This document shows, piece after piece, positions 29,777 through 42,921 of a DNA stretch of 64,000 nt (positions within the stretch are counted from its first letter, which is position 1; the number at the start of each line of letters is the position of its first letter). The position numbers and the translations under genes are program-made. Below the pieces are notes generated by a model. It ran no database searches. It had not been told where the DNA came from and saw only the letters and a program-made list of their open reading frames with translations. This stretch comes from Sphaerochaeta sp. GTDB taxonomy: Bacteria; Spirochaetota; Spirochaetia; Sphaerochaetales; Sphaerochaetaceae. The stretch covers positions 1 through 64,000 of the forward strand of contig JAGYOG010000002.1 of the NCBI GenBank assembly GCA_018399495.1. Direction: 5' to 3'.

Positions 29777-32770
29777 ATGAATATATCGAAACAATATGCA
29801 AACCCCCTCTCTCATGATAAAATACCTAGTATGTATACACTTGACCCAACATGGTTGCCATTCAGCAACCTTATGCTAAGACATATCTACAACGTGCTTC
29901 TCATCTGCAACGATTATGACCGTTTTCTCTTGGAGGAAGACGGACGGGTTGAGGAAGAGTTATATCTTGAATATACCCAGCTTGGGCTGAACAACCCTCC
30001 AAAGTTTACCCATACCAGCACCGCGGAAGAAGCGCTTAACCTCTTGAGCCAGAGAACGTTTGACCTAGTCGTCACCATGCTCGACCTCGGGACCGACTCT
30101 GTTGAGCAGTTGGCTACAACCATCAAGAAGAACAATCCACAGATGCCGGTTATCGCTCTCTCTCCTTCCTCTAGCCACAAGAGAAACAAGATGATCAAGG
30201 GATCAGATTGCAAGGACATTGATTACTTTTTCTATTGGCAGGGGGATCCCACGATATTCCTCGCCATGATCAAGCTGGTTGAGGATAGGATGAACCTTGA
30301 ACACGATACCCAAGAAGCAGATGTACAGCTTATCATCCTGGTAGAGGACTCAGTACGATTCTACTCTTCCTACCTACCCATGATGTACACCACATTGATT
30401 CAGCAAAACCGCTCAGCCATCCTTGAAGCGCTGAACAACTGGGGAAAAACTCTCAGAATGCGTGGCAGACCAAAGATTGCTCTTGCCAGGACCTATGAGG
30501 AAGCCCAGAAACTCTATACCAAGTATCGACACAACATCCTGGGAATCATTACCGACATGTCCTATCTCAAAGAGGGTGAGCAGGATAAGTATGCAGGCCT
30601 GCATCTAACAAAAATGGTTCATGCAAATGATCCAGAACTTCCTATACTGATTCAAAGCAGCGACAACACTGCCCAGGAGATGGCAGAAGACGCAGGAGCT
30701 TACTTCCTCTGGAAAAACAATTCAGCACTCCTGTTTGAACTGAATAAATTCATGACCAAGCACTACGGATTCGGCCCCTTCATTTTCCGTGATCCTGATA
30801 CCATGAAAGAAATTGCCCGCGCTGAGACCATGCGCGACCTGCAGAGGGTCCTTCCCAAGGTCCCGACGAGAAGCTTTGATTTCCACTCTAGGCGAAATGA
30901 TTTTTCACGTTGGCTCAGGGCACAGAGTCTCTATGCCATTGCAGCAAGAATCAAGGACTTGAAAATTCCTGCCAATGGAGATGCAAGGGTAGTGCAGCAA
31001 CAGATGACTGAGATCATCCGCAACTACCGTAAAGAGAGAACCAAGGGAGTCATTGCACAGTTCAGCAGGAACAACTATGACGAGACACTGTTCTTCAGCC
31101 GAATTGGAGGGGGGTCACTGGGAGGAAAGGGCCGTGGGCTTGCTTTCATTGACATGGTGCTTAGAGCAGCCAACCTCCCAGAAAAATACCCGGATGTATA
31201 TCTCTCCATCCCACGTACGGTAGTGGTTACCACCGATCAGTTCATCCAGTTTCTTGAAGAGAATGATCTGAATGACATAGCCTCTGGAGACCTCCCTGAT
31301 GAGACCTTGCTTAAAATTTTCCTCTCTAAACCACTGAGCAATGAATTGGTTCTGAACCTCTCTGAAATTATCCAAGTCATCCATCAGCCTATCTGTGTAC
31401 GCTCTTCCAGCCTTCTGGAAGACTCTCACTACCAACCGTTTGCCGGGGTATATGAAACATGTATGCTCCCCAACCAAGGGTCTGACGAAGCGAGACTCCA
31501 AGAGCTCTGCGATGCGGTGCGAGCAGTCTGGGCTTCCACCTTCTTCAGGAGTGCAAAGGAGTACCTCAAGGCAACAGAGCATATGCTGGAAGATGAGAAG
31601 ATGGCTGTCATCATCCAGCAGGTCATAGGAAGCGACCATGGCCCTTACTGGTATCCAAACATCAGCGGGGTTGCCCGTTCCTTGAACTACTATCCCTTGG
31701 GAGGGGAGAAGCCAGAGGATGGTGTTGGGATGCTCAGCTTCGGCTTCGGCAAATCGGTAGTCGACAACGGCTCTGCCCTCCGCTTCAGTCCCACCCACCC
31801 AAAGCGACCGGCCCAGTTCCTTGGGGGCAACCAGACAAGCAGCCAGAACACCTTCTACGCCCTGAACATGGGAGGCGGTTACCATCCACTTGAAGAGGGT
31901 GGGCTTGAGAACCTTGATCTGCTCAATTTCCGTGAATCCTGGGCTTATCCCGATGCTATCAGATACATTGCAAGCACTTACGATATGGCAAGTGGTCAGC
32001 TCAGCGAGTCCGTCAGGACTGAAGGGGAAAGGGTAATAACCTTCAACGGAATACTCAAGTATGACGCCTTTCCCTTGGCCTCCATCGTCAGGGATGTACT
32101 TCATTTGGGAACAGAGGCAATGGGAAAACCGGTGGAGATAGAATTTGCAGTAAACCTTAATCGTGCTGCCCCCAAGATGAGGGAGTTCAGCCTTCTCCAG
32201 ATTCGTCCGATTGCAGCAGGGAATGAAGAGAGTGATGTCTCAATCAGTGAAAAGGAACGAGAAAATGCTGCCATCCATTCCCATGTGGTCATGGGAAACG
32301 GAAAGATTGACCATGTACAAGACATCATCTACTTGAAACTGGACCAGTTCTCTGCCTCCTCAATGAAAGGGATGGCAAAGGAACTCGACAAGCTCAATGC
32401 CTCAATGGTCATTGCAGAGAAAGACTATATCCTGGTGGTAGCCGGAAGATTGGGGAGTTGTGACCCATGGCTGGGCATCCCCGTGACTTGGTCACAGATA
32501 TCTCGTAGCAAGGTCATCGTTGAAACTGGTTTACAGGGGTTCCAAGTAGAACCAAGCCAGGGGACCCACTTCTTCCAGAACATGACAAGCCTTGGATGTC
32601 TCTACCTCACAATAAACCCAACTTACCAATCTGGTTCAATGCAGTATGAAAAACTTGAAGCACTTCCGGTGGTCTCAGAGACAGAACACTTCATTCATGC
32701 AAGAAGCGAAAAGCCATTGACCATAAAGGTCAACGGCTTCGATGGAGAGGGAGTAGTCCTAGTCGATTAA
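29777..32770 (+). CDS. Two REC-like domains fused to a PEP/pyruvate-binding ATP-grasp domain
   Basis: 997 residues. Residues 30-190 and about 200-350 look like two response-regulator receivers of degenerate kind (IYNVLLICNDYDRFLLEEDGR; LIILVEDSVRFYSSYLP; GIITDMSYLKEG). From about 430 comes a PEP-synthase-type ATP-grasp: SRIGGGSLGGKGRGLAFID, then PICVRSSSLLEDSHYQPFAGVYET and a late LLQIRPI. The phospho-histidine swivel (TSHxA) and PEP-binding barrel of real PEP synthase are absent, so it cannot make PEP alone. It may transfer phosphate in signalling. Starts at 29777 and 29831 are both possible; neither has a ribosome binding site. The latter matches where relatives begin (LPFSNLMLRHIYNVLL). 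Confidence 0.8.
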   Translation: MNISKQYANPLSHDKIPSMYTLDPTWLPFSNLMLRHIYNVLLICNDYDRFLLEEDGRVEEELYLEYTQLGLNNPPKFTHTSTAEEALNLLSQRTFDLVVTMLDLGTDSVEQLATTIKKNNPQMPVIALSPSSSHKRNKMIKGSDCKDIDYFFYWQGDPTIFLAMIKLVEDRMNLEHDTQEADVQLIILVEDSVRFYSSYLPMMYTTLIQQNRSAILEALNNWGKTLRMRGRPKIALARTYEEAQKLYTKYRHNILGIITDMSYLKEGEQDKYAGLHLTKMVHANDPELPILIQSSDNTAQEMAEDAGAYFLWKNNSALLFELNKFMTKHYGFGPFIFRDPDTMKEIARAETMRDLQRVLPKVPTRSFDFHSRRNDFSRWLRAQSLYAIAARIKDLKIPANGDARVVQQQMTEIIRNYRKERTKGVIAQFSRNNYDETLFFSRIGGGSLGGKGRGLAFIDMVLRAANLPEKYPDVYLSIPRTVVVTTDQFIQFLEENDLNDIASGDLPDETLLKIFLSKPLSNELVLNLSEIIQVIHQPICVRSSSLLEDSHYQPFAGVYETCMLPNQGSDEARLQELCDAVRAVWASTFFRSAKEYLKATEHMLEDEKMAVIIQQVIGSDHGPYWYPNISGVARSLNYYPLGGEKPEDGVGMLSFGFGKSVVDNGSALRFSPTHPKRPAQFLGGNQTSSQNTFYALNMGGGYHPLEEGGLENLDLLNFRESWAYPDAIRYIASTYDMASGQLSESVRTEGERVITFNGILKYDAFPLASIVRDVLHLGTEAMGKPVEIEFAVNLNRAAPKMREFSLLQIRPIAAGNEESDVSISEKERENAAIHSHVVMGNGKIDHVQDIIYLKLDQFSASSMKGMAKELDKLNASMVIAEKDYILVVAGRLGSCDPWLGIPVTWSQISRSKVIVETGLQGFQVEPSQGTHFFQNMTSLGCLYLTINPTYQSGSMQYEKLEALPVVSETEHFIHARSEKPLTIKVNGFDGEGVVLVD

Positions 32771-33471
32771 TGCTCTGGATGGGTCTCCTTGTAGGCCCAG
32801 ACCCATATTGCAGTGTGAGAACGGACTGCTTCTACTGCCTTCTCACTATTTCTATCCATAATTGCCTGATGCAATTGTTTATGCACCTCATCAACTCCTT
32901 CATGAATGGGGTTGATGGTCTTGGTGAACAAATCAATTACAAAGGTATAGATATTTTCAACGATGCTGTTATGAGAAAACCGTGCAAGCAAGCGATGATA
33001 TTGCAAGTCTAGGATACCTGCTTTTTGGACAGAAGGATGATCATCACTGAGTTCCTTCTGGAATTCCTTCATTGATTGATCGAGCAACGCCAGTTCTTCA
33101 TCACTTGCCGACTCGATGACCAATTTGACGATACCCTCTTCCAGCAACTGCCTGACCTGAGTCAGTGATTTGTAATCACGGTCTTGTACAAGTATCTGGA
33201 ACAGCTGGGGGTCGAAAAGTCGCTTGTTTGAAGCACTGGAAACAAACGTTCCATGTCCTTGCTTAATCTCAACCACCCCATAGGCAGAAAGAATCTTCAA
33301 GGCTTCCCGCACCGTACCACGCCCAACTTTCAGGCTCTCGGCAAGGGAGATTTCATTGGGAATCATATCCCCGGGAGAAAGCTTCTGGTCGATCAAGAGC
33401 TCCTTGATCTTCTCTATCACCCATTCAACCGCTGATGGACGGCCTTCGCGTACCCTGAACATGTCTTCCAT
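32767..33471 (-). CDS. GntR family (FadR/FCD subfamily) transcriptional regulator
   Basis: 234 residues. N-terminal GntR winged helix with IPNEISLAESLKVGRGTVREALKILSAYGVVEIKQGHGTFV (about residues 35-75), then an all-helical FCD ligand domain with the metal-binding histidines expected in the family (QYHRLLARFSHN, and a final RSHTAIW). It is the last gene of the TRAP/transketolase group and probably its repressor, answering a sugar acid or intermediate. ATG 33471 has AGGGGGA 9 bases before it. A GTATCATAC palindrome lies 29 bases upstream. It overlaps the convergent PEP-domain gene by 4 bases. Confidence 0.88.
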   Translation of the reverse strand: MEDMFRVREGRPSAVEWVIEKIKELLIDQKLSPGDMIPNEISLAESLKVGRGTVREALKILSAYGVVEIKQGHGTFVSSASNKRLFDPQLFQILVQDRDYKSLTQVRQLLEEGIVKLVIESASDEELALLDQSMKEFQKELSDDHPSVQKAGILDLQYHRLLARFSHNSIVENIYTFVIDLFTKTINPIHEGVDEVHKQLHQAIMDRNSEKAVEAVRSHTAIWVWAYKETHPEH

Positions 33472-33499
33472 GGAAATTAATCCCCCTGCATACAGCACT

Positions 33500-33508
33500 G
33501 TATCATAC
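33500..33508. promoter_or_regulatory. Possible GntR/FCD operator before the gntR gene
   Basis: GTATCATAC is a 9-base palindrome of the kind bound by FadR-type GntR proteins. A related repeat (CATCATACATCATACATATG, 40291-40310) lies before the first gene of the operon. Confidence 0.35.
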
Positions 33509-33537
33509 CAAGAGCTCTTGATGAAAGCAAGGAATCA

Positions 33538-33879
33538 TCAATCCTTGTAATCATCCCTCGAGGGGGAGAAACACTCAATAAGTTCTGTATCCTCAAGAAT
33601 CTTGGAACCATGGGGATCCATGGAAGCAAAGTAGTACGCATCTCCAGCGTGGAGATCCAAGACCTCACCATCTCCCTTGATGAAATGGATATGCCCCTTT
33701 ACCACAAAGCCATTCTGGCTTTCAGGGTGGGTATGCATCTCCAGCGTGGATCCTTTCTCGAGGTAGAAATAGCAGATCATGCTATCCTTGTCATAGGTCA
33801 AGGTAACCCGTTCAATTCCCTTCGCCCGTTCCACTTTCTTGTCTGTATGCAGATTTCCTCTGTGTTTTTTCTGATCCAT
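33538..33879 (-). CDS. Cupin domain protein
   Basis: 113 residues, one cupin barrel. Metal-site motif 1 is MHTHPESQNGFVVKGHIHF (two His, Glu, then His) and motif 2 is AGDAYYFASMDPHGSKIL with the fourth ligand. Such small cupins act as sugar or sugar-acid isomerases, or as sensors. Its ATG overlaps the stop of the transaldolase-like gene by one base, so the two are translationally coupled. Being inside a sugar-cleavage operon, an isomerase or mutarotase role is a reasonable guess. Confidence 0.85.
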   Translation of the reverse strand: MDQKKHRGNLHTDKKVERAKGIERVTLTYDKDSMICYFYLEKGSTLEMHTHPESQNGFVVKGHIHFIKGDGEVLDLHAGDAYYFASMDPHGSKILEDTELIECFSPSRDDYKD

Positions 33880-34928
33880 TATTTGTTTCCCCTTCTCTCA
33901 GCAATCAAGGCGAGCAAGGCATTCCATCCCTTTTGGAATGAGGTACGGAATAACTCAACCCCACCATAGTCGTAGTACTCATCAACAGACATTCCATCCG
34001 TCTCAAGGGCTCGCTGGTAGTCAGGAAGTTCCTTGCAGAGCGTCTGGATCTGCAGCTCATTCAGCGTACTGCCTATTCGCTCAACTACTTCCTTGTCTTG
34101 TTCAATCAACACCTCGGCAGTTCCCTTCCAGTTGATGGTGATGCTCAAATCCCCACCCACCAGTTCGGTGAAGTCTTCGAGTTTTCTTGCTCCTCCACCG
34201 ATCATGATTCCTGGATAACCTCTATCCTTCATCATCTCATATTCTTTCTTTGCGATGGAGAGTCCTGCATATTTGACCAACTCCTCATCAATGGAAAGCT
34301 GTTGTTCCTTGATGACACGCTTGAAATGATCATCAAGGATACCGGTGATGTGGGTCACATAGAAAGGAGGGGTCTTTCCACTCTTCTGGCTAACCTTCTG
34401 ATAGGCTTCACAAATGGAAATTGTCTGACTCAGACTCATAACCTCTGTTGCCATCGTGGGAATAGTATGATCCACCATGGTGCTGATTGCCTCGATACCC
34501 CACTGAGTAACCGGTATCTTGATACAGATATTTTCAGCAATCTCATGGTTCTCCAACCCTTCCTTTACGATCAAACTGGTATCGGTCTCAGCAAAAGGAT
34601 CTCCTTGGATGGTAACCAAGCCATCTGTACCGCCACTGGATCGGTAAAGCGGAAGAAATACATCTGCGATGCGGCCTACCATCATCTGTTGCACCTTGGA
34701 GGCAAGAACTGAATCATCCTTCTCATAGGGAAGCAACAGATCAATCATTCGCCTCACAACACGCATGTCCTCTTCTGATTCAAAGAGCTTTGAAACATAA
34801 CTCGGATTGGTGGTGCAACCAATGGCACCCTCTTCTATCGACCGCTGGGCTTGCTCCATGGTCGGGTTGTTGATCCAGAACCGAGTCTTGGTCTGTTGAT
34901 GCACACGGTGAAAATACGTAGATTTCAT
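33879..34928 (-). CDS. Transaldolase-like class I aldolase
   Basis: 349 residues of transaldolase type. Visible: FWINNPTMEQAQRSIEEGAIGCTTNPS (the family TNPS strand), IKIPVTQWGIEAI with the Schiff-base lysine, and later GIMIGGGARKLEDFTELVGGDLSITINW. It is longer than the 215-residue short forms and its C-terminus (DGMSVDEYYDYGGVELFRTSFQKGW) is distinct. It would move or release a three-carbon unit. ATG 34928 has AGAGG 7 bases upstream and starts 10 bases after the dctM stop; an in-frame start at 34985 would overlap dctM. With the split transketolase it defines a non-oxidative pentose-type route for an unknown substrate. Confidence 0.82.
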   Translation of the reverse strand: MKSTYFHRVHQQTKTRFWINNPTMEQAQRSIEEGAIGCTTNPSYVSKLFESEEDMRVVRRMIDLLLPYEKDDSVLASKVQQMMVGRIADVFLPLYRSSGGTDGLVTIQGDPFAETDTSLIVKEGLENHEIAENICIKIPVTQWGIEAISTMVDHTIPTMATEVMSLSQTISICEAYQKVSQKSGKTPPFYVTHITGILDDHFKRVIKEQQLSIDEELVKYAGLSIAKKEYEMMKDRGYPGIMIGGGARKLEDFTELVGGDLSITINWKGTAEVLIEQDKEVVERIGSTLNELQIQTLCKELPDYQRALETDGMSVDEYYDYGGVELFRTSFQKGWNALLALIAERRGNK

Positions 34929-34938
34929 ACACATACCT

Positions 34939-36219
34939 CTACTTGAATAATAACGACGGAAGCCACAGGGAAATCTGCGGAACATAGGTGAGAATCACCA
35001 ATGCCACCAGAAGGGAGAACAGGTATGGCAAGACTGCCTTGAATACCTTCCCCACAGGAAGCTTCACGATCGGACTAAGCATATACACACTCATGCCAAC
35101 GGGAGGGGTGATCATTCCAATCATCAGGTTGAATACCATCACCAGACCGAAGTGGACAGGATTAACACCACTGGCCATTAAGGGCGGCAACAGAATCGGA
35201 GTCAAAATCATGATTGCAGCAGTAGACTCCAGGAACATTCCAGCAATCAAGAGAATTACATTGGCAAGAATCAAAAGCACAACCGGGTTGTCTGAGATAC
35301 CGAGCATCAAGGCTGAGACTTGCTGGGGAAGCTGTTCTACAGTCAACACCCATGCAAAAATGGCAGCGGAGGCAACAATAAACAGTACACTTGCTGTTGA
35401 TTGCAATGTCTCCTTGCACGTCTTGATAAAGGAAGCAAAACTAAGCTCCTTGTATATGGCACTCAGCACCAATGCATAGGAGACAGCAATTGCTGCAACC
35501 TCAGTCGGGCTGAACCAACCAGAGAGCATACCCCCCATCATGATCAAAGGCATGAACATGGAGGGAAGGCCCCTCTTAACAATAGTGAGAACCTCTGTAG
35601 GTGAATACTTGCTATCCACTCCCTTGGGATAGTTGTACCGCCGAGCAAAAAAGGCCACTTGGACCATCAAAGCAAAGGCGATGATCAGTGCAGGCACAAT
35701 CCCTGCAATAAGGAGCTGCATAGAAGACGTTTCAGCGGCAGCCGCATAGATGATCAAGGGAATCGAAGGAGGAAAGATCGGACCAATGACTGCAGAGGCT
35801 GCAGTAATGGCAGCGGCATGCGTCTTAGGATACTTCTGTTTCTCCATCGCATCCAGCTCGATGTTCCCCAGCCCACCAACATCGGCAAGAGCCGCTCCTG
35901 AAATTCCACTAAAGATCAGGGAAGCCACAATATTTACCTGGGCCAAGCCACCTCTTAAGCGACCTACCAACAATTTTGCAAATTCAAACAACCGTTCGGT
36001 AATACCCGAACTATTCATCAACCCTGCTGCCAAAATGAACAAGGGAACGGCGAGCATGGGAAATGAATTAAGACTGGTTACCATTCTTTGAATCAACTGA
36101 CTGGGAGGAATATTTGCCATAATCAGATACAAGGCAGAGGGAATCCCCATGCTAACAGCAATAGGAAGCCCAGTGGTCAGCAAAACCAGAAACAGGAGTA
36201 CCACCATAGAACCACTCAT
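34939..36219 (-). CDS. dctM: TRAP transporter large permease subunit
   Basis: 426 residues, very hydrophobic, about twelve or thirteen helices. Typical DctM stretches: FPMLAVPLFILAAGLMNSSGITERLFEFAKLLVGRLRGGLAQVNI, SAVIGPIFPPSIPLIIY, FLESTAAIMILTPILLPPL and MIGMITPPVGMSVYM. It is the Na+-driven transport subunit of a tripartite carrier for carboxylates or sugar acids. It overlaps dctQ by 4 bases. The whole TRAP set is complete here (dctP, dctQ, dctM). Confidence 0.95.
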   Translation of the reverse strand: MSGSMVVLLFLVLLTTGLPIAVSMGIPSALYLIMANIPPSQLIQRMVTSLNSFPMLAVPLFILAAGLMNSSGITERLFEFAKLLVGRLRGGLAQVNIVASLIFSGISGAALADVGGLGNIELDAMEKQKYPKTHAAAITAASAVIGPIFPPSIPLIIYAAAAETSSMQLLIAGIVPALIIAFALMVQVAFFARRYNYPKGVDSKYSPTEVLTIVKRGLPSMFMPLIMMGGMLSGWFSPTEVAAIAVSYALVLSAIYKELSFASFIKTCKETLQSTASVLFIVASAAIFAWVLTVEQLPQQVSALMLGISDNPVVLLILANVILLIAGMFLESTAAIMILTPILLPPLMASGVNPVHFGLVMVFNLMIGMITPPVGMSVYMLSPIVKLPVGKVFKAVLPYLFSLLVALVILTYVPQISLWLPSLLFK

Positions 36220-36692
36220 TGGGTACCCCCCTGCTTACGAAGCGTTATGATGACACTAGCTAGGGAAAAGATGCACATGGCAAGCACTCCCAGTGTGATG
36301 GGTATGTAAAACACCACATTCGGCATTGCTAATGCGGGTGTCCGAACATTCCAATTGAATTCCATGATGGTCACTATGGCATTAAGCACATACAGACCAA
36401 AGATCATGACCAGGAGCTGGGTAATGACTGAAAACCAACGCTTCATCTCTTCGTTCATATAAAGCACAACAATATCCACAATGATATGTTGGTTTCTCCA
36501 GGTTAAAACAGGTATCATCAGGAACACCAACGAGACCAAGGAAAACCGAGCAAGCTCTTCCAACTGAATCGACCCGGCATTAAATACATTTCTCATGATA
36601 ATCTGTATAAGTACTGAGAGGAACAACATCAATAGGAAGATGATGCCGAAAAACTCATACAAACCAGCCATCTTTTTCAAGAACCTTTGCAT
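36216..36692 (-). CDS. dctQ: TRAP transporter small permease subunit
   Basis: 158 residues with four membrane helices: FFGIIFLLMLFLSVLIQIIMRNVFN, then LEELARFSLVSLVFLMIPVLTWRNQHIIVDIVV, the conserved E-x-x-R and H-x-x-x-D motif of DctQ. ATG 36692 is chosen as AAGGA lies 8 bases before it; longer in-frame starts would overlap the hairpin and end of dctP. It bridges the binding protein and DctM. Confidence 0.9.
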   Translation of the reverse strand: MQRFLKKMAGLYEFFGIIFLLMLFLSVLIQIIMRNVFNAGSIQLEELARFSLVSLVFLMIPVLTWRNQHIIVDIVVLYMNEEMKRWFSVITQLLVMIFGLYVLNAIVTIMEFNWNVRTPALAMPNVVFYIPITLGVLAMCIFSLASVIITLRKQGGTQ

Positions 36693-36721
36693 AAGAGTAT
36701 TCCTTGTAATAGAGAACATGT

Positions 36722-36749
36722 GTGGAAGCAGGACAAGTCCTGCCTCCAC
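36722..36749 (-). promoter_or_regulatory. Stem-loop between dctP and dctQ
   Basis: GTGGAGGCAGGA and TCCTGCTTCCAC (minus strand) form a 12-base stem with a 4-base loop and no U run. It follows the dctP stop by 14 bases. Such hairpins shield the binding-protein mRNA from decay, giving more DctP than membrane subunits. Confidence 0.65.
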
Positions 36750-36763
36750 CTCTGAAATCACAA

Positions 36764-37786
36764 CTACTTGATTGCGTGGATCATCTCGTAGTACTTGCCC
36801 CAAGCATCCCCGAAACGTTCGTTGACAACTTTACTCACGGCTGAACGGAACTCATCAACCTTCAGTCCATCGGCTGCGGTGATGATGGTCATACCCTTGT
36901 CCTTGAGCGTCTGAACGTCCTTAGCCTCATTCTCCTGTACATAGGTAGAGGCCCAGTCACGTGTCTCACGAGCAACTTCACTGAAAATCTGCTTATGCTC
37001 TTCACTCAGCGACTGCCATACTTTCTCATTAATCACCACAGGTTCGCTGCCCATGATATGGTCGGTCATCATCGCATACTTCTGCACTTCGTAGATGTTG
37101 CTGGTGACCAACGTACTCACTGGGTTCTCCTGTCCATCGGCAACACCGGTGGAGAGAGCAACAGGAACTTCTGCCCAATCAATGGGAACTGCTACCGCCC
37201 CCATACCTTCCACTGCTGCAAGATAGATAGGGGAAGGAATAGCACGAATCTTCTTTCCAGCCAAGTCAGCTGGGGAGTAGACAGGGAAATTCGCAGTCAA
37301 CTCACGGGTGCCGAAGTAGAAGGAGTAGAGAATCCTGACGTTTCTGGTATCAATCAACTTCTGGTTCAGTTCCTTGAGAGCAGGACTGGTCTCGGGATCA
37401 GTTGCCTTAAGCAGGTGGTCGACATCCCGATACAGGTACGGGGTGTCAAACAGACCCAGATCATTGAGCAAAGGTTGCAAACCACCATACGTGTTGTGGT
37501 GTAGTGCAATCGATCCCATGGAAACAGCTTCCGCCATCTCACTAATGGATCCCAACTGACTTGCTGGATACACTTCAATCTTGATGACCCCACCGGTCTT
37601 CTCTGCTACCTTATCAGCAAAATAGGTAGCCTGTAGTCCATTCGGACTGGATGCTGGATTCATGTGAGCATATCGCAATACCAATGGATTTTCTGCAGTC
37701 GGACCACTCTTTTCCACCTGCCCCTGCGCAAACAAAGCCGTTGCCAACAACGTGACAAGCACTAATACAACAATCTTCTTTTTCAT
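36764..37786 (-). CDS. dctP: TRAP transporter substrate-binding protein
   Basis: 340 residues. Signal peptide MKKKIVVLVLVTLLATALFAQG, then a DctP fold: LRYAHMNPASSPNGLQATYFADKV, KIEVYPASQLGS, PADLAGKKIRAIPSPIYLAAVEGMGA, IDWAEVPVALSTGVADGQENP with the conserved arginine-containing carboxylate site. It binds a carboxylated ligand such as a sugar acid in the periplasm. AGGAGA precedes the start. It is the fourth gene of the operon, 45 bases after the transketolase C subunit. Confidence 0.94.
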   Translation of the reverse strand: MKKKIVVLVLVTLLATALFAQGQVEKSGPTAENPLVLRYAHMNPASSPNGLQATYFADKVAEKTGGVIKIEVYPASQLGSISEMAEAVSMGSIALHHNTYGGLQPLLNDLGLFDTPYLYRDVDHLLKATDPETSPALKELNQKLIDTRNVRILYSFYFGTRELTANFPVYSPADLAGKKIRAIPSPIYLAAVEGMGAVAVPIDWAEVPVALSTGVADGQENPVSTLVTSNIYEVQKYAMMTDHIMGSEPVVINEKVWQSLSEEHKQIFSEVARETRDWASTYVQENEAKDVQTLKDKGMTIITAADGLKVDEFRSAVSKVVNERFGDAWGKYYEMIHAIK

Positions 37787-37831
37787 CTGTTTTATCTCCT
37801 TTTGTTTGTATCCTCAGGTAAGCCTGAAGAA

Positions 37832-38782
37832 TTATACCTTTTTTTGCTTAATGGCCTTCTTGGCTCCCTCGATGATATCTTGTACAGACATACCGTAGGC
37901 ATCAAGCAGCTCATCAGGGAAGCCGGACTCACCATACACATCCTGCAATCCCAAACGTACCAAATAGGCAGGGTTGCCCTCTGCTATCACTTCAGCGACT
38001 GCACTACCGAGACCATTAATGATGGTATGGTCTTCAATAGTAACCGCGCATTCTGTCTCACCGAGAATACCTACAATTCCCTCTCGGTCCAATGGTTTGA
38101 TGGTTGCAACCTCCACAACCTTCACCCCAATACCTTCTTCCTTCAGGCTTTTTGCAGCTTCGATAACACGACCAGTAATAAAACCATGACAGAAGAGTGC
38201 TACATCACTCCCTTCATCTACCAAGGTTCGAATCTTGCCCAAGGGAAATGGTGTTCCATCTGGGAATACTTTTTCTTCCCGTCCGCTACCAATTCGTATG
38301 TATACTGGTCCATCAACATCAGCACTTACCAACATCGCTTGATATACCTGGTTCCCATCTGCAGGACAGAGAATAGTGAAATTCGGCATCGTCCTGAGGA
38401 TTCCTACATCCTCAATGAACTGATGGGAAACCCCTTCCCGGTTTCCTCCATGCAAGCCACCGTTGGCGCCAACGAAACGGACTTTCAGGGCAGGATAGGA
38501 GACAAAGGTCCGCATCTGTTCACAGGCGCGCATCGTCAAAAATCCTGCATACGTGCAGATGTAGGGCAAGAGTCCACTGGAAGCAAGCCCACTGGAAACC
38601 CCCACCCCGTTCTGCTCGGAAATTCCAAGCTCAATGACACGATCAGGATATGCTTCCAAGAACGGTTCACCCTTGACCACCTTCAGTGAGTCAGTGGAAA
38701 CGAATACGATATCATCACGCTCTTTTGCCAAGTGCATCAGTGCATCTCTAAATCCAATTCTGGTGCTGTCAACACTACTCAT
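37832..38782 (-). CDS. Transketolase, C-terminal subunit
   Basis: 316 residues, equal to the pyrimidine-binding and C-terminal domains of transketolase: IELGISEQNGVGVSSGLASSG (cofactor-activating Glu), HGGNREGVSHQFIEDVGILRTMPN and the C-terminal VKVVEVATIKPLDREGI. It works with the N-terminal subunit encoded just upstream, with which it overlaps by 4 bases. Split transketolases of this sort move two-carbon units from phosphorylated ketoses and often serve special sugars (for example apulose 4-phosphate or sulfofructose) rather than the housekeeping pathway. Confidence 0.92.
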   Translation of the reverse strand: MSSVDSTRIGFRDALMHLAKERDDIVFVSTDSLKVVKGEPFLEAYPDRVIELGISEQNGVGVSSGLASSGLLPYICTYAGFLTMRACEQMRTFVSYPALKVRFVGANGGLHGGNREGVSHQFIEDVGILRTMPNFTILCPADGNQVYQAMLVSADVDGPVYIRIGSGREEKVFPDGTPFPLGKIRTLVDEGSDVALFCHGFITGRVIEAAKSLKEEGIGVKVVEVATIKPLDREGIVGILGETECAVTIEDHTIINGLGSAVAEVIAEGNPAYLVRLGLQDVYGESGFPDELLDAYGMSVQDIIEGAKKAIKQKKV

Positions 38783-39597
38783 ACCACACCTCCCAGTTCC
38801 TTCATGGCTATACTGTACTCTTCATCGGTATAGACCCGTTTATGCCAAGAGTTCTCTCCCACCATGAAAGAAACACCGTTTCCCTTGATGGTCTTGCAGA
38901 TGATTGCCGAAGGTCGCTCTGTTTCTGCTTTGGCTTTCTCAACCGCACTCAGAATCTGGGAAATATCATGTCCGTCAATGCTTTGGGTATGCCAACCGAA
39001 AGCCTTCCACTTATCCTCGATTGGGTACGGTCCTGAAACTTCTGAGACAGTTCCCCCACTTTGGTAGTTGTTGTTGTCAATGAAAACCGTCAGGTTTGCT
39101 GCCTTCTGGTGACTTGCAGCCATTGCTGCTTCCCAGATCATTCCTTCTCCAAGTTCACCGTCCCCGGTGATTACATACACCCGGTTTGTTTGCCTCTGGA
39201 TCCGAGCTGCCAAAGCCATGCCCAACCCAATGGAGACACCGTTTCCAAGCGAACCTGTGGTTGCATCAAGACCTTTCGTCTTTGGTGCATAGGGGTGGCC
39301 TTGCAAATTGGAATGAAGGTACCGAAGCGTATACAGATCATCAACAGGGAAGTAACCCCTTCTTGCAAGTGCTGCATACAGTACAGGACAGGAGTGTCCC
39401 TTTGAGAGTACAAAGCGGTCGCGGTCGCTCATATCTGGTTTGGATGGGTCTATATTCATCACCTCAAAGTAGAGGGCGGTAATAATATCTGCAACTGAAA
39501 AACTGGGGCTTGGATGGCCGTCCTTCGTTCGGTAGACCATCTCCACGACATCTCTCCTGAGCTGCAAAGACATCGCATTCAAAGCTTCAAGATCCAT
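38779..39597 (-). CDS. Transketolase, N-terminal (thiamine-diphosphate) subunit
   Basis: 272 residues. Thiamine-diphosphate fold with LSKGHSCPVLYAALARRG, TTGSLGNGVSIGLGMALAARI, the Mg-binding GDGELGEGMIWEAAMAASH and FIDNNNYQSGG. GAAGGAGGA precedes ATG 39597. It lies 12 bases after the racemase-like gene and overlaps the C-subunit gene. Together they form one catalytic transketolase. Confidence 0.93.
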   Translation of the reverse strand: MDLEALNAMSLQLRRDVVEMVYRTKDGHPSPSFSVADIITALYFEVMNIDPSKPDMSDRDRFVLSKGHSCPVLYAALARRGYFPVDDLYTLRYLHSNLQGHPYAPKTKGLDATTGSLGNGVSIGLGMALAARIQRQTNRVYVITGDGELGEGMIWEAAMAASHQKAANLTVFIDNNNYQSGGTVSEVSGPYPIEDKWKAFGWHTQSIDGHDISQILSAVEKAKAETERPSAIICKTIKGNGVSFMVGENSWHKRVYTDEEYSIAMKELGGVV

Positions 39598-39609
39598 AGC
39601 TTCCTCCTT

Positions 39610-40266
39610 CTACAACAGTCCCTTGATCTGCTCAACACCCAGGCGGGGACTACTGAGCACCGTCTTGCCGGTAAGTTCTGCAAGCGGCTTCTCCATTCTC
39701 GCCATCGAACCTTGGGCAAGAAGAATCACATCACAGGAATCTGCTACTCTTTTTGCCGTCTCTGCAATGAGTCGATCATGGGTTTCAGCATCGCCTGATG
39801 TGATGGCGGGGAATGCACCCTCAGCTAGGGCACTGATGGTCCTGATTGATTTCCCTGCCTCCCGTGCACACCTCTCCAATAATCGGATGGTTGGATCCAA
39901 GGTGGTAGGAAGGGTGGCCAGCACGGCGATTGAGTCAGTGAGTTCAATAGCCCGACGAGCCATGGGTTCATCAATTCTGATAATTGGGATGGGAAAAAAC
40001 TCCCGTGCACCATAGACAGCATCCCCGATGGAGGAGCAGGTGTTGAGAATCAGCTCAGCACCTGATGCACAAGCAATCTCATAATATCCATAAAGCCGTC
40101 TCTTCACAGCCTTGGTCATTCCCCCGGCCTCAATGATGTCAGCAATCATACTGTCATCGAGTATGTTCATTATCTTGTAATCGCCAAGGGTTTCTTTCAT
40201 CAGATCTGACAGTGGTTTCACCAAGGCAGCTCCGGTATATATTGCAGCAATCGTATGTTCAGCCAT
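39610..40266 (-). CDS. Aspartate/glutamate racemase family protein
   Basis: 218 residues of the Asp/Glu/hydantoin racemase fold. The first catalytic cysteine is in ILNTCSSIGD; the second half has VILLAQGSMARM, where true racemases have a second cysteine, so it appears to lack the usual cysteine pair. A one-cysteine enzyme could isomerise or cleave rather than racemise. ATG 40266 has GGGAGGAG 5 bases upstream. It is the first gene of the transketolase/TRAP/transaldolase operon. The substrate is unknown. Confidence 0.8.
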   Translation of the reverse strand: MAEHTIAAIYTGAALVKPLSDLMKETLGDYKIMNILDDSMIADIIEAGGMTKAVKRRLYGYYEIACASGAELILNTCSSIGDAVYGAREFFPIPIIRIDEPMARRAIELTDSIAVLATLPTTLDPTIRLLERCAREAGKSIRTISALAEGAFPAITSGDAETHDRLIAETAKRVADSCDVILLAQGSMARMEKPLAELTGKTVLSSPRLGVEQIKGLL

Positions 40267-40290: not shown

Positions 40291-40310
40291 CATCATACAT
40301 CATACATATG
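40291..40310. promoter_or_regulatory. Possible operator repeat before the catabolic operon
   Basis: CATCATACATCATACATATG contains overlapping ATCATACAT repeats resembling the GTATCATAC palindrome before the operon's gntR gene. It lies 25-45 bases before the first start codon, downstream of a minus-strand TTGACA (near 40340). Confidence 0.35.
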
Positions 40311-40407
40311 AAGAATGAGGCATCTTTTCAAATCTGTCAAGGAAAAATTATTCTGCCCCTCTCCCTAAGGCTATAAGACTGAATACGAGATGATGCCGCA
40401 AAGAGCC

Positions 40408-40454: not shown

Positions 40455-40817
40455 ATGAATAAAGAAATTAAATTCAAATATATTTTTGAAGAAGGATATA
40501 ATCCTAAGTATGTGAATGGTGCATATGGTGGAGTATCTCCCATGGGAGAAATAATAGTTAATTTCTATCTTGAGAGGATTCCATTGCCTAAAGAGGATAT
40601 TCATGAGCTTAATACTGAAGGTCAAATTGGTTCAATCAAAGAAAGAAATCCTAAAGACTTCAACAATATTATGATTCGTTACATCCAAAGTGGTATAGTC
40701 TTATCGCTTGAACAAGCGAAATCCATTTATGCCTGGTTGGGCAATAATATTGAAGAAGCTGAAAAAATTGAAAACATGAAACAAAAAGCTTTGAAGGAAC
40801 AATCAGACCAGGAGTAA
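40455..40817 (+). CDS. Small protein of unknown function, cassette gene 1 (DUF3467-like?)
   Basis: 120 residues. The N-terminal half is beta-rich (YVNGAYGGVSPMGEIIVNFYLERIP) and the C-terminal half helical (SGIVLSLEQAKSIYAWLGNNIEEAEK) with a charged end. The order (gained-function or no-function loop, strand, then LSxxxAKxxxxxLxxNIxxxE helix) recalls DUF3467 proteins; that match is weak and from memory. ATTAGGAG precedes the ATG. Gene 2 begins 4 bases after the stop. Base composition is much richer in A+T than neighbouring genes, suggesting acquisition from elsewhere. Confidence 0.65.
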   Translation: MNKEIKFKYIFEEGYNPKYVNGAYGGVSPMGEIIVNFYLERIPLPKEDIHELNTEGQIGSIKERNPKDFNNIMIRYIQSGIVLSLEQAKSIYAWLGNNIEEAEKIENMKQKALKEQSDQE

Positions 40818-40821
40818 AATT

Positions 40822-41313
40822 ATGTTAAATGAAGCATCTTTAACCCAACCACTACGATTTGAACCTAAAACATCTGTGACAAAATTGATATATACTAGGT
40901 TACCATCAGGAGACAAAGTTAATACCAACTCTTTCTTAAGTATTTTTTCTAAAAACAGTTCGTCTTCAGGAGTGATTGATAGTCCTGTACGAAAATTAGA
41001 AAGACTGATGAAATCCTTCAAAGACCTAGAGTACGGTTGGAATGGAGATTCAGCTAAACCTATTCCGGATTCAGTAATAAAAACTTCTCAAGAAATATTA
41101 TTTTCGATATCATCAAAACTACCTGAAGTATATCCTACAGGTAGAGAATCAATACAACTCGAATATGATAAAAATGAAAAATCTCTCGAAATTGAAATCT
41201 TTGAAGATAGGTTTGAAATCGCAATATTTGATCAAACAGACCTCTTATCTGAAGACGTTTTTAGGCTAGATGAAAAGAGTAAAATTAATGAGCATATAGC
41301 AAAATTCATATGA
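40822..41313 (+). CDS. Protein of unknown function, cassette gene 2
   Basis: 163 residues. A disordered, serine-rich first third is followed by a compact domain: LMKSFKDLEYGWNGDSAKPIPDSVIKTSQEIL, then VYPTGRESIQLEYDKNEKSLEIEIFEDRFEIAIF. The W-N/D-x-x-x-A-x-P-I helix and the PT(G)-x-x-(S/G)-x-QLEY...LEIEI strands recur, as far as I recall, in many bacterial hypothetical proteins that sit beside a partner like gene 3. AGGAG precedes the start. It overlaps gene 3 by 4 bases (ATGA), so the two products are probably made in equal amounts and may bind one another. Function unknown. Confidence 0.72.
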   Translation: MLNEASLTQPLRFEPKTSVTKLIYTRLPSGDKVNTNSFLSIFSKNSSSSGVIDSPVRKLERLMKSFKDLEYGWNGDSAKPIPDSVIKTSQEILFSISSKLPEVYPTGRESIQLEYDKNEKSLEIEIFEDRFEIAIFDQTDLLSEDVFRLDEKSKINEHIAKFI

Positions 41314-41696
41314 ATTCTAATGATATTGAACCTCATGAGATTCTATACCGGGGTATAACGATAAATCCCGATATGTGGAAACCTTCTAAAGGAAGGCCTT
41401 CCTCTGCTGCATTCAAGCAAACTTCATCTCTATCTGTTGATAGGGATGGGAATCGAGAGTTTGATGAAATAAAGACCAATCTCTCTAAAAATATAAAATC
41501 ACAACTTAAGGCTATTGCTTTTTTTTCTGCTAAAAGTTGCATTGAAAAAAAAATGCATCTTCGTCCAGACCCAAACCCTAATGGAAAGAATAATCCCTAT
41601 CATGCATTGATCGATGATTCTAAAAACATTCAAGGAATTAGTCGAGCAAATGCAAAATATTTAGCCTCTATCTGTAAATTTAAATTGATTAACTAG
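41310..41696 (+). CDS. Protein of unknown function, cassette gene 3
   Basis: 128 residues. Near the N-terminus: ILYRGITINPDMWKPSKGRPSSAAFKQTSSLSVDR. The tract R-PSSAAF-K....LSVDR is a hallmark I associate with a widespread uncharacterised family encoded beside gene-2-like proteins. The C-terminal half has an invariant-looking HLRPDPNPNGKNNPYHALI with two histidines and an arginine that could form an active site, then a lysine-rich end. Translation is coupled to gene 2. It might be an enzyme or toxin and gene 2 its partner; nothing in the sequence proves this. Confidence 0.72.
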   Translation: MNSNDIEPHEILYRGITINPDMWKPSKGRPSSAAFKQTSSLSVDRDGNREFDEIKTNLSKNIKSQLKAIAFFSAKSCIEKKMHLRPDPNPNGKNNPYHALIDDSKNIQGISRANAKYLASICKFKLIN

Positions 41697-41865: not shown

Positions 41866-42849
41866 CTAATAAGGACCACGGATGTGTTGTGCCACCTTGT
41901 CCTGATAGAACTTCTCCAATTGCTTATGCAGCTCATCTGAAAGAGGAGGAAGATCTGAGATTGCAGCATTATCCACCACCTGGGATGGTCGGCTGGCACC
42001 AGGGATTACCACAGAGACAGCATCAAAGTCGAGAATCCAACGCAGTGCCATCTGAGCAAGACTCATTCCCTCCGGCTTCATTGCCTTGAGCTCTTCAGCA
42101 AGTTCAACTCCCTTTTCAAAAGGAACACCTGCAAACGTCTCCCCAACATTAAAAGCTGCCCCATCACGATTGAAGTTGCGGTGGTCGCTTTCATCAAAGG
42201 TGGTATTCTTCTTCATCTTTCCAGAGAGAAGCCCACTTGCCAATGGAACACGGGCAATGATGGAAACATCCCTCTCCTTGGCCTTGCCAAAGAGGTCGGT
42301 GATCAATTTCTGTCGGAACATATTGAAGATAACCTGAAGGGAAGCAATTCCCTCCTGCTTGAGACAGATAATTCCCTCTTCGACAGACTCAACACTTGCC
42401 CCAAAGTCGGCAATCTTTCCCTGCTTTTTCAAATCCCTGAGGACATCAAAGACAGCGCCCTCTTCCAAAACCTCCTGGGGAATACAGTGCAGCTGGATTA
42501 AATCCAAGCGTTCAACCCCTAGGCGGGAGAGTGAGGCATCGGTGTGGCGAATCATCGCTTCCGGGGTGAAATTACCAGGCCATCCAGGATCTCCACCACG
42601 TCCCAATTTGGTTGCAACAAAGAAGGAATCACGATTGGATTTGAGAAATTTCCCAATAAATTTCTCGCTTCTTCCATCTCCATACACATCGGCTGTATCA
42701 AAAAAGGTAATACCAGCATCAGAGGCGGTCTGGAGGATATTCATGGCAGTCTCATCCTCAACGGTACCCCACGATCCACCGATCTGCCAGGTCCCCAAGC
42801 CAACCTCGGAAATCATAGTCTTATTCGTACCAAACGGCCTTTTCCTCAT
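41866..42849 (-). CDS. Aldo/keto reductase
   Basis: 327 residues, an (alpha/beta)8 barrel. Catalytic tetrad region: FFDTADVYGDGRSE (Asp, Tyr), ATKLGRGG (Lys) and LIQLHCIP (His). The cofactor end has VIPGASRPSQVVDNA. It reduces aldehydes or ketones with NAD(P)H; the substrate is unknown. ATG 42849 has GGAGGAG just upstream and starts the conserved MRKRPFG; a longer in-frame start lies before this site. Between it and the AT-rich cassette are 170 bases with no feature seen. Confidence 0.92.
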   Translation of the reverse strand: MRKRPFGTNKTMISEVGLGTWQIGGSWGTVEDETAMNILQTASDAGITFFDTADVYGDGRSEKFIGKFLKSNRDSFFVATKLGRGGDPGWPGNFTPEAMIRHTDASLSRLGVERLDLIQLHCIPQEVLEEGAVFDVLRDLKKQGKIADFGASVESVEEGIICLKQEGIASLQVIFNMFRQKLITDLFGKAKERDVSIIARVPLASGLLSGKMKKNTTFDESDHRNFNRDGAAFNVGETFAGVPFEKGVELAEELKAMKPEGMSLAQMALRWILDFDAVSVVIPGASRPSQVVDNAAISDLPPLSDELHKQLEKFYQDKVAQHIRGPY

Positions 42850-42921
42850 AATTACTCCTCCATTTTGTGTATCTCTCTTCATCTTAGGAAGCTCTCACAC
42901 AAAAAGCAAGGAATTCATACC

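Follow-up and report, generated by a model that had tools for sequence, protein, structure and literature searches.

What does a bacterium cleave with a split transketolase (TK) and a transaldolase-like enzyme, if the operon that encodes both carries no kinase? The question is raised by nine adjoining minus-strand genes of Sphaerochaeta sp., at positions 32767-40266 of the window, i.e. the first 64,000 nucleotides of contig JAGYOG010000002.1 in the 2.6 Mb draft genome GCA_018399495.1. Read from position 40266 downward, they encode a racemase-like protein (AGR), the two subunits of the split TK (TKN and TKC), a tripartite ATP-independent periplasmic (TRAP) carrier (DctP, DctQ and DctM), a transaldolase-fold enzyme (TalL), a small cupin and a GntR/FCD regulator. 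A preliminary description of the locus had assigned the enzymes to unusual ketose phosphates. We propose, with moderate confidence, that the operon serves the catabolism of an imported, unphosphorylated, carboxylated sugar, from which the TK and TalL would produce C2 and C3 fragments.

Phosphate-site residues of the transketolase and TalL

The operon TK retains the residues of the thiamine diphosphate (ThDP) site and the catalytic His: the equivalents of H26, H66, H100, H261 and H473 are His28, His68, His101 and His252 of TKN and His120 of TKC. Its two-gene layout, domains and catalytic His are those of the split TK of Carboxydothermus hydrogenoformans (6YAK/6YAJ). The head-group motif reads RSFHR in phosphate TKs and RAFDR in the sulfofructose TK SqwGH (PMC11659671), whereas it is R-V-Y-N-S in the operon enzyme, with Asp469 replaced by Glu. 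Unlike in the Carboxydothermus enzyme, three of the four phosphate-orienting residues are replaced (S385→V, H461→N, R520→S), and two positive charges have been gained, Arg115 in TKC and Lys253 in TKN, the latter adjoining the catalytic His252. Both charges are specific to the clade of operon TKs, which is single and supported at 100/100. In the 20 operon TKs the signature R-V-Y-N-E-H-S stands in place of R-S-F-H-D-H-R, except that three of them have I or A for V; the Arg520 position is Ser (S166) in 20/20, as against Arg in 13/13 other TKs compared. The split itself, previously taken as the mark of an unusual route, is no such mark here, since all five TKs of the source genome are split.

The best Foldseek matches of the TalL AlphaFold model (predicted local distance difference test, pLDDT, 95) are transaldolases (E=1.5e-16). 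TalL shares with the transaldolase (TAL)/fructose-6-phosphate aldolase (FSA) family (PF00923) the TIM barrel, the Schiff-base Lys and the equivalents of Asn35 and Thr156. With residues counted from codon 34931, Lys132 and Arg228 of FSA/TAL are kept as K138 and Arg249; in contrast, Asp17 is replaced by Asn21, Glu96 by Gln109 and Arg181 by Ile198, and Glu163 is new. These key residues are invariant among 87 family members, all of which keep the Schiff-base Lys and have Asn for the catalytic Asp17 and Ile for Arg181 (87/87). Gln109 is also found in an FSA-like protein of the same genome. Arg181 of TalB is a confirmed phosphate ligand (PMC3962226), and a sister subfamily, 24-30% identical to TalL (25-29% for the eight sequences compared), retains both the Asp and Arg181 in 8/8. 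The substrate of TalL would thus have no phosphate at its aldehyde end, and the residue pattern makes TalL more likely an aldolase than a transaldolase. Identity of TalL with F2, the second transaldolase of Faecalicatena, was considered and dropped, as F2 has Asp23 and fits the sister Asp/Gln/Arg subfamily. The members of that subfamily at loci L041-L048 have a residue pattern which fits the unexplained F2 of the Faecalicatena sulfoquinovose (SQ) cluster (PMC11659671).

Most of the distal-phosphate residues are lost in both enzymes, and Arg115 and Lys253 are new in the TK, beside catalytic-site positions; the negative charge of the substrate therefore probably lies nearer the bond that is cleaved, which would suit a short or branched keto acid. 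With the phosphate ligands replaced in TK and TalL alike, action on ketose phosphates is doubtful. Reactions without a substrate phosphate would make a substrate kinase unnecessary and so explain the kinase-free operon. In this respect the preliminary description was right: no kinase is present among the nine genes or in full-type operon loci. In the apiose/apulose-4-phosphate TK route, in contrast to these loci, a sugar kinase accompanies the split TK.

Racemase-like protein, carrier, cupin and distribution of the gene set

AGR has the fold of glutamate, aspartate and allantoin racemases (AlphaFold pLDDT 95, Foldseek) and belongs with the Asp/Glu/hydantoin/allantoin racemase superfamily (PF01177). 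It keeps Cys77 and a nearly invariant His163, but the second Cys of the racemases is Gln185, and Gln in 48/48 AGR homologues. The single catalytic cysteine had been noticed before; it is a family trait, and we therefore rejected the idea of a defect in this gene. AGR further differs from the racemases in its setting, i.e. catabolic operons with TalL, TRAP or tripartite tricarboxylate carriers, DUF1537 kinases or RuBisCO-like proteins. In other phyla, family members stand near DUF1537 kinases and RuBisCO-like proteins at L054 and L138, and near a class II aldolase plus a dehydrogenase at L052; such neighbourhoods are known for 3-oxo-acid chemistry (threonate, erythronate and apionate routes). 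AGR may thus handle a 2-oxo or 3-oxo acid as isomerase, epimerase or decarboxylase. A second single-cysteine racemase-family protein of the source genome (G000:C48, L160, 7006-7692; TCS...AQASM) lies at a contig end, with a TctC-like gene and a TIM-barrel gene as neighbours.

Aligned to 4P47, DctP carries the Arg/Arg/Asn carboxylate triad (R161, R181, N221), and its partners DctQ (PF04290) and DctM (PF06808) complete the carrier. This is consistent with a probably acidic substrate, in agreement with the charged or carboxylated compound suggested earlier. Erythronate, pantoate and galactonate, which we take to be ligands of DctP relatives, serve as leads only. The triad has been described for TRAP binding proteins, where it also binds isethionate, and pantoate and erythronate are mentioned among related structures (PMC11668362); it therefore points to an acid, not to which acid. 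Use of a plain dicarboxylate was rejected, as this would give no reason for a TK and an aldolase. The cupin resembles other small cupins and, over almost the whole chain, KdgF, with which it shares its length and a C-terminal SPxRxDY-type motif; unlike KdgF systems, the operon has no unsaturated-uronate lyase or 2-keto-3-deoxygluconate (KDG) genes.

Most of the operon proteins show 86-99% identity to their counterparts in Sphaerochaeta sp. S2 and in a Sphaerochaetaceae metagenome-assembled genome. When an alignment of eight TalL relatives was scanned over 84,980 genomes, 160 relatives were obtained, of which 80 were kept; relatives occur in Spirochaetota, Chloroflexota, Clostridia, Bacteroidota and Planctomycetota. 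Essentially the whole gene set is held by ~15 spirochaete loci from several genera, with the GntR/FCD gene last in nearly all full loci. At L073 and L075 the operon consists of two units that diverge, AGR-TKN-TKC-TRAP and TalL-cupin-GntR, and the Treponema loci L068 and L069 lack TRAP genes and have a divergent ABC-type transporter set next door. Cultured Sphaerochaeta also carry the operon; S. halotolerans (L057) has lost dctPQM, an 87-aa open reading frame (ORF; L057:9681-10004) being left between TKC and TalL.

Of 139 family genomes, 19 have an operon-type TK (at least 45% identity) and 18 have TalL (at least 60%), and all 18 carry both; the lone carrier of TK without TalL is a fragmented draft (G395). 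The co-occurrence has a Fisher p of ~1e-21, a value which overstates independence because the genomes are related. As ~10 genomes of the same genus have neither TK nor TalL, the gene set is accessory and is gained or lost as one unit. A phylum-wide TK search at E<=1e-70 matched the source genome only, too few for a linkage test, and searches of plasmids for TalL gave distant relatives only (<=31% identity), with no annotated close homologue there.

The genes around TalL have carboxylate metabolism as their common theme. AGR is near TalL in 38 of the 80 loci, and beta-keto-acid cleavage enzymes (BKACE) in 12, in L062 directly downstream of the regulator. Other neighbours are HpaI/GarL-type aldolases, Ldh_2 dehydrogenases, lactonases, tartrate/isopropylmalate-type dehydrogenases and TctA carriers; L096 and L123 have a predicted fructose-type phosphotransferase system and class II aldolase. 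The BKACE neighbours suggest a beta-keto acid.

Proposed pathway and alternative substrates

The acid would be imported by the TRAP carrier, or by the ABC-type set in the two Treponema loci. The cupin may then turn an aldose acid into a ketose acid; TalL, via a Schiff base on Lys138, would release or transfer a three-carbon keto unit; the split TK would remove a two-carbon ketol unit; and AGR may isomerise or epimerise the keto-acid fragment between both cleavages. If phosphate enters at all, it would do so solely on an acceptor drawn from central metabolism. We infer here the order of steps, the substrate class, the cupin as isomerase and the lack of substrate phosphorylation. The previous statement that isomerases and dehydrogenases are missing from the operon holds only with reservations: the cupin and AGR are plausible isomerases, and an aldo/keto reductase is the next minus-strand gene upstream.

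By analogy, the scheme resembles the bifurcated sulfo-TK/sulfo-TAL pathway for SQ in Faecalicatena (SqwGH, SqwI, SqvA), which likewise has a split TK, a transaldolase-fold enzyme, an isomerase, a charged unphosphorylated ketose and no substrate kinase. The operon differs by R-V-Y-N-S instead of RAFDR in the TK, by Asn/Gln in TalL where BmSF-TAL has Asp/Glu, by a racemase-fold protein instead of an RpiB-like isomerase, by a KdgF-like cupin instead of DUF4867, and by a TRAP instead of an ABC carrier. No characterised pathway that matches the gene set or its exact order was found in the open-access literature; this is weak evidence of absence, and agrees with the view that the pathway may be new. 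If the proposal is correct, phosphate-free cutting of a charged ketose, the idea of the sulfosugar TK/TAL pathways, extends to carboxylated sugars, and a function would be named for the racemase subfamily that also stands beside DUF1537 kinases and RuBisCO-like proteins. Such operons could be recognised by R-V-Y-N-E-H-S in the TK, N-Q-K-E-I-R in TalL and a single-Cys AGR with AQxSM.

Several points weigh against the proposal. Some distal anion binding remains, as the TK retains Arg8 (Arg358) and TalL keeps Arg249 (TalB Arg228). Arg115 and Lys253 were placed by alignment, not by a structure of the operon TK, and the isomerase role of the cupin is suggested solely by family resemblance. If the TK acceptor is glyceraldehyde 3-phosphate or erythrose 4-phosphate, as in sulfo-TK, there is no ready explanation for why Arg520 and His461 were lost. 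Finally, TK, AGR and TalL also occur together in Chloroflexota and Sumerlaeota, with the TK signature R-S-F-Y-A-H-R, in which His461 and Asp469 are changed and Ser385 and Arg520 retained. The phosphate-site loss is therefore not general for such sets; its full extent is specific to the spirochaete operon.

Any one specific substrate, taken by itself, is unlikely. A linear hexuronate-like acid could be degraded by a carboxylate analogue of the bifurcated sulfosugar pathway, in which the cupin would yield a 5-keto-hexonate and the TK and TalL would take C2 and C3 units, respectively. The enzyme logic matches SQ degradation in Faecalicatena (isomerase, split TK, tetrose isomerase, transaldolase; PMC11659671), the operon holds a KdgF-like cupin, and a GarL-like aldolase and an IolN-like lactonase adjoin other TalL genes. 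However, the source genome already has a classical uronate route (UxaC and a UxaA-like, altronate-dehydratase-like gene), which makes ordinary hexuronates less likely as the operon substrate. Moreover, the lost distal anion site of the TK suits a C6 carboxylate less than a charge near the reaction centre, and the lost TK residues would be needed for a phosphorylated acceptor. We regard this alternative as rather unlikely.

A route for an unusual ketose phosphate, its kinase, isomerase and dehydrogenase being encoded elsewhere in the genome, appears improbable to us. Kinases do exist elsewhere in the genome, e.g. one of DUF1537 type and one FGGY; TalL Arg249 and TK Arg8 at the phosphate end are retained; and a Rhizobium plasmid locus pairs a split TK with an FGGY kinase. 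Yet the replacement of TalL Arg181 and of three phosphate ligands of the TK is family-wide, and although the operon behaves as an accessory unit, no kinase accompanies it in the ~15 loci, which come from several genera.

A further lead comes from plant-wall hydrolases. At two divergent loci, L069 and L117, a GH127 gene stands at the regulator end of the operon, together with GH42 and GH29 in L069 and with a GH106-type and an MGH1-like enzyme in L117. The characterised GH127 enzymes include one aceric acid hydrolase, BT1003 (PMC10850190). Together with the BKACE genes, these neighbours point tentatively to a keto acid that is branched or short. In one form of our proposal, which we think has only a small chance of being right, the TK and the transaldolase-fold aldolase would both act phosphate-free on a sugar acid of the plant wall that is branched or short (e.g. 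aceric acid), with AGR as keto-acid isomerase or decarboxylase; this would amount to three new enzyme activities in one operon. Aceric acid itself (3-C-carboxy-5-deoxyxylose, from rhamnogalacturonan II), or a similar branched plant-wall acid, is quite improbable as the substrate. Here the cupin would form a 2-ketose, TalL would split C3-C4 with release of acetaldehyde, AGR would act on 3-oxotetronate and the TK would cleave 3-oxotetronate. A charge near the scissile bond of the TK and the hydrophobic Ile for Arg181 of TalL fit this scheme, the BKACE neighbours suit its beta-keto acid, and kinase, dehydrogenase and dehydratase are all unneeded. In contrast, almost all other characterised members of the GH127/GH146 tree are beta-L-arabinofuranosidases (PMC10850190), the Sphaerochaeta loci have no glycosidases beside the operon, and the TalL residue pattern is common to members in quite different contexts.

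A sulfosugar or other sulfonate route was rejected as very improbable: it would share the split TK and transaldolase logic, and TRAP proteins with the same triad can bind isethionate (PMC11668362), but the operon TK is without RAFDR, none of the RpiB-like isomerase, sulfoacetaldehyde reductase, exporter, sulfolyase and SQ isomerase is encoded within 32767-40266, and the probable sulfo-TK cluster of the genome, with the published RAFDR motif and all candidates for the sulfo-TK pathway partners, lies elsewhere (G000:C6).

Operon layout and the other transketolases of the genome

The nine genes form the compact minus-strand unit described previously, with support for a single transcription unit, and each of them scores above its Pfam family cut-off (Table 1). 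Most gaps are below 50 bp or are overlaps: 12 bp between AGR and TKN, an overlap of 4 bp for TKN/TKC, 45 bp between TKC and DctP, an overlap of 4 bp for DctQ/DctM, ~4-10 bp between DctM and TalL, an overlap of 1 bp for TalL/cupin, and 39 bp or 66 bp between cupin and GntR, as set by the choice of start. ATG 40266 is the most likely start of AGR, and ATG 33471 a more likely start of GntR than GTG 33498. TalL starts at ATG 34934 or 34928, within a longer ORF, and the TTG start listed for DctQ (36803) falls within dctP.

Table 1. Features of the operon and its upstream region (window coordinates).
Feature	Position	Strand	Basis
AGR, single-cysteine Asp/Glu/hydantoin-racemase-fold enzyme (Cys77, His163, Gln185 for second Cys)	39610..40266	-	PF01177 (Asp_Glu_race) E=2.6e-18, AlphaFold pLDDT 95
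TKN, ThDP-binding subunit of split TK (His28, 68, 101, 252; clade-specific Lys253)	38779..39597	-	PF00456 (Transketolase_N); nearest solved chain 6YAK
TKC, pyrimidine/C-terminal subunit of split TK	37832..38782	-	PF02779/PF02780 (Transket_pyr, Transketolase_C); nearest solved chain 6YAJ
DctP, TRAP periplasmic binding protein, triad R161, R181, N221	36764..37786	-	PF03480 (DctP)
DctQ, TRAP small permease, start uncertain (ORF opens 36803)	36216..36692	-	PF04290 (DctQ)
DctM, TRAP large permease	34939..36219	-	PF06808 (DctM)
TalL, transaldolase-fold class I aldolase subfamily	33879..34934	-	PF00923 (TAL_FSA) E=3e-22, AlphaFold pLDDT 95
KdgF-like small cupin, candidate aldose/ketose isomerase or ring opener	33538..33879	-	Cupin_2; matches 9bwf, 2pfw, KdgF 5fpx/5fpz/5fq0
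GntR/FCD regulator (ORF opens GTG 33498)	32767..33471	-	PF00392 (GntR) and PF07729 (FCD)
-35-like box TTGACA, predicted operon promoter	40335..40340	-	conserved in 11 aligned upstream regions
Repeated TATGATG element, candidate operator	40291..40311	-	conserved around likely transcription start
Aldo/keto reductase, candidate accessory enzyme outside operon proper	41866..42882	-	PF00248

Upstream of AGR, a promoter-like stretch can be aligned in 11 loci, with TTGAC invariant and the whole box near-invariant. Conservation of the TATGATG repeat is clearest in Sphaerochaeta, and the GntR/FCD protein is probably a repressor acting at this element. The aldo/keto reductase gene lies ~145-150 bp upstream of AGR in three sister genomes (L055-L057), and locus L064 also holds a member of this family. 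In the window, three plus-strand ORFs (40455-41696, the first DUF3467-like) are inserted between this gene and the operon; at this site L055-L057 have only the ~145-150 bp, and L058 has different small ORFs.

The four further split TKs of the source genome differ in motif: those at L147 and L148 keep His461, Asp469 and Arg520, and those at L149 and L150 read R-A-F-D-N-H-R. Compared with the operon enzyme, this indicates that the TK motif differs by context inside one genome. At L149 (G000:C6, 1890-6745) the RAFDR-type split TK stands with an RpiB-like isomerase, an iron-dependent alcohol dehydrogenase, a TauE exporter and DUF4867, while a ROK-like regulator and ABC genes run divergently; this is the probable sulfo-TK cluster for SQ, and Spirochaetes are listed among sulfo-TK carriers in a review (PMC12890257). 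The RAFDNHR-type split TK at L150 (G000:C40, 1-9867) is accompanied by an FGGY kinase, GAPDH-like, phosphoglycerate-kinase-like and LarA-like proteins and an ABC transporter. At L148 (G000:C56, 1510-7787) a response regulator, a TRAP carrier and a phosphate-type split TK stand in a row, with no further enzyme. At L147 (G000:C13, 203-6524) a tripartite tricarboxylate-type carrier, a TIM-barrel isomerase-like protein and a phosphate-type split TK apparently form a single unit.

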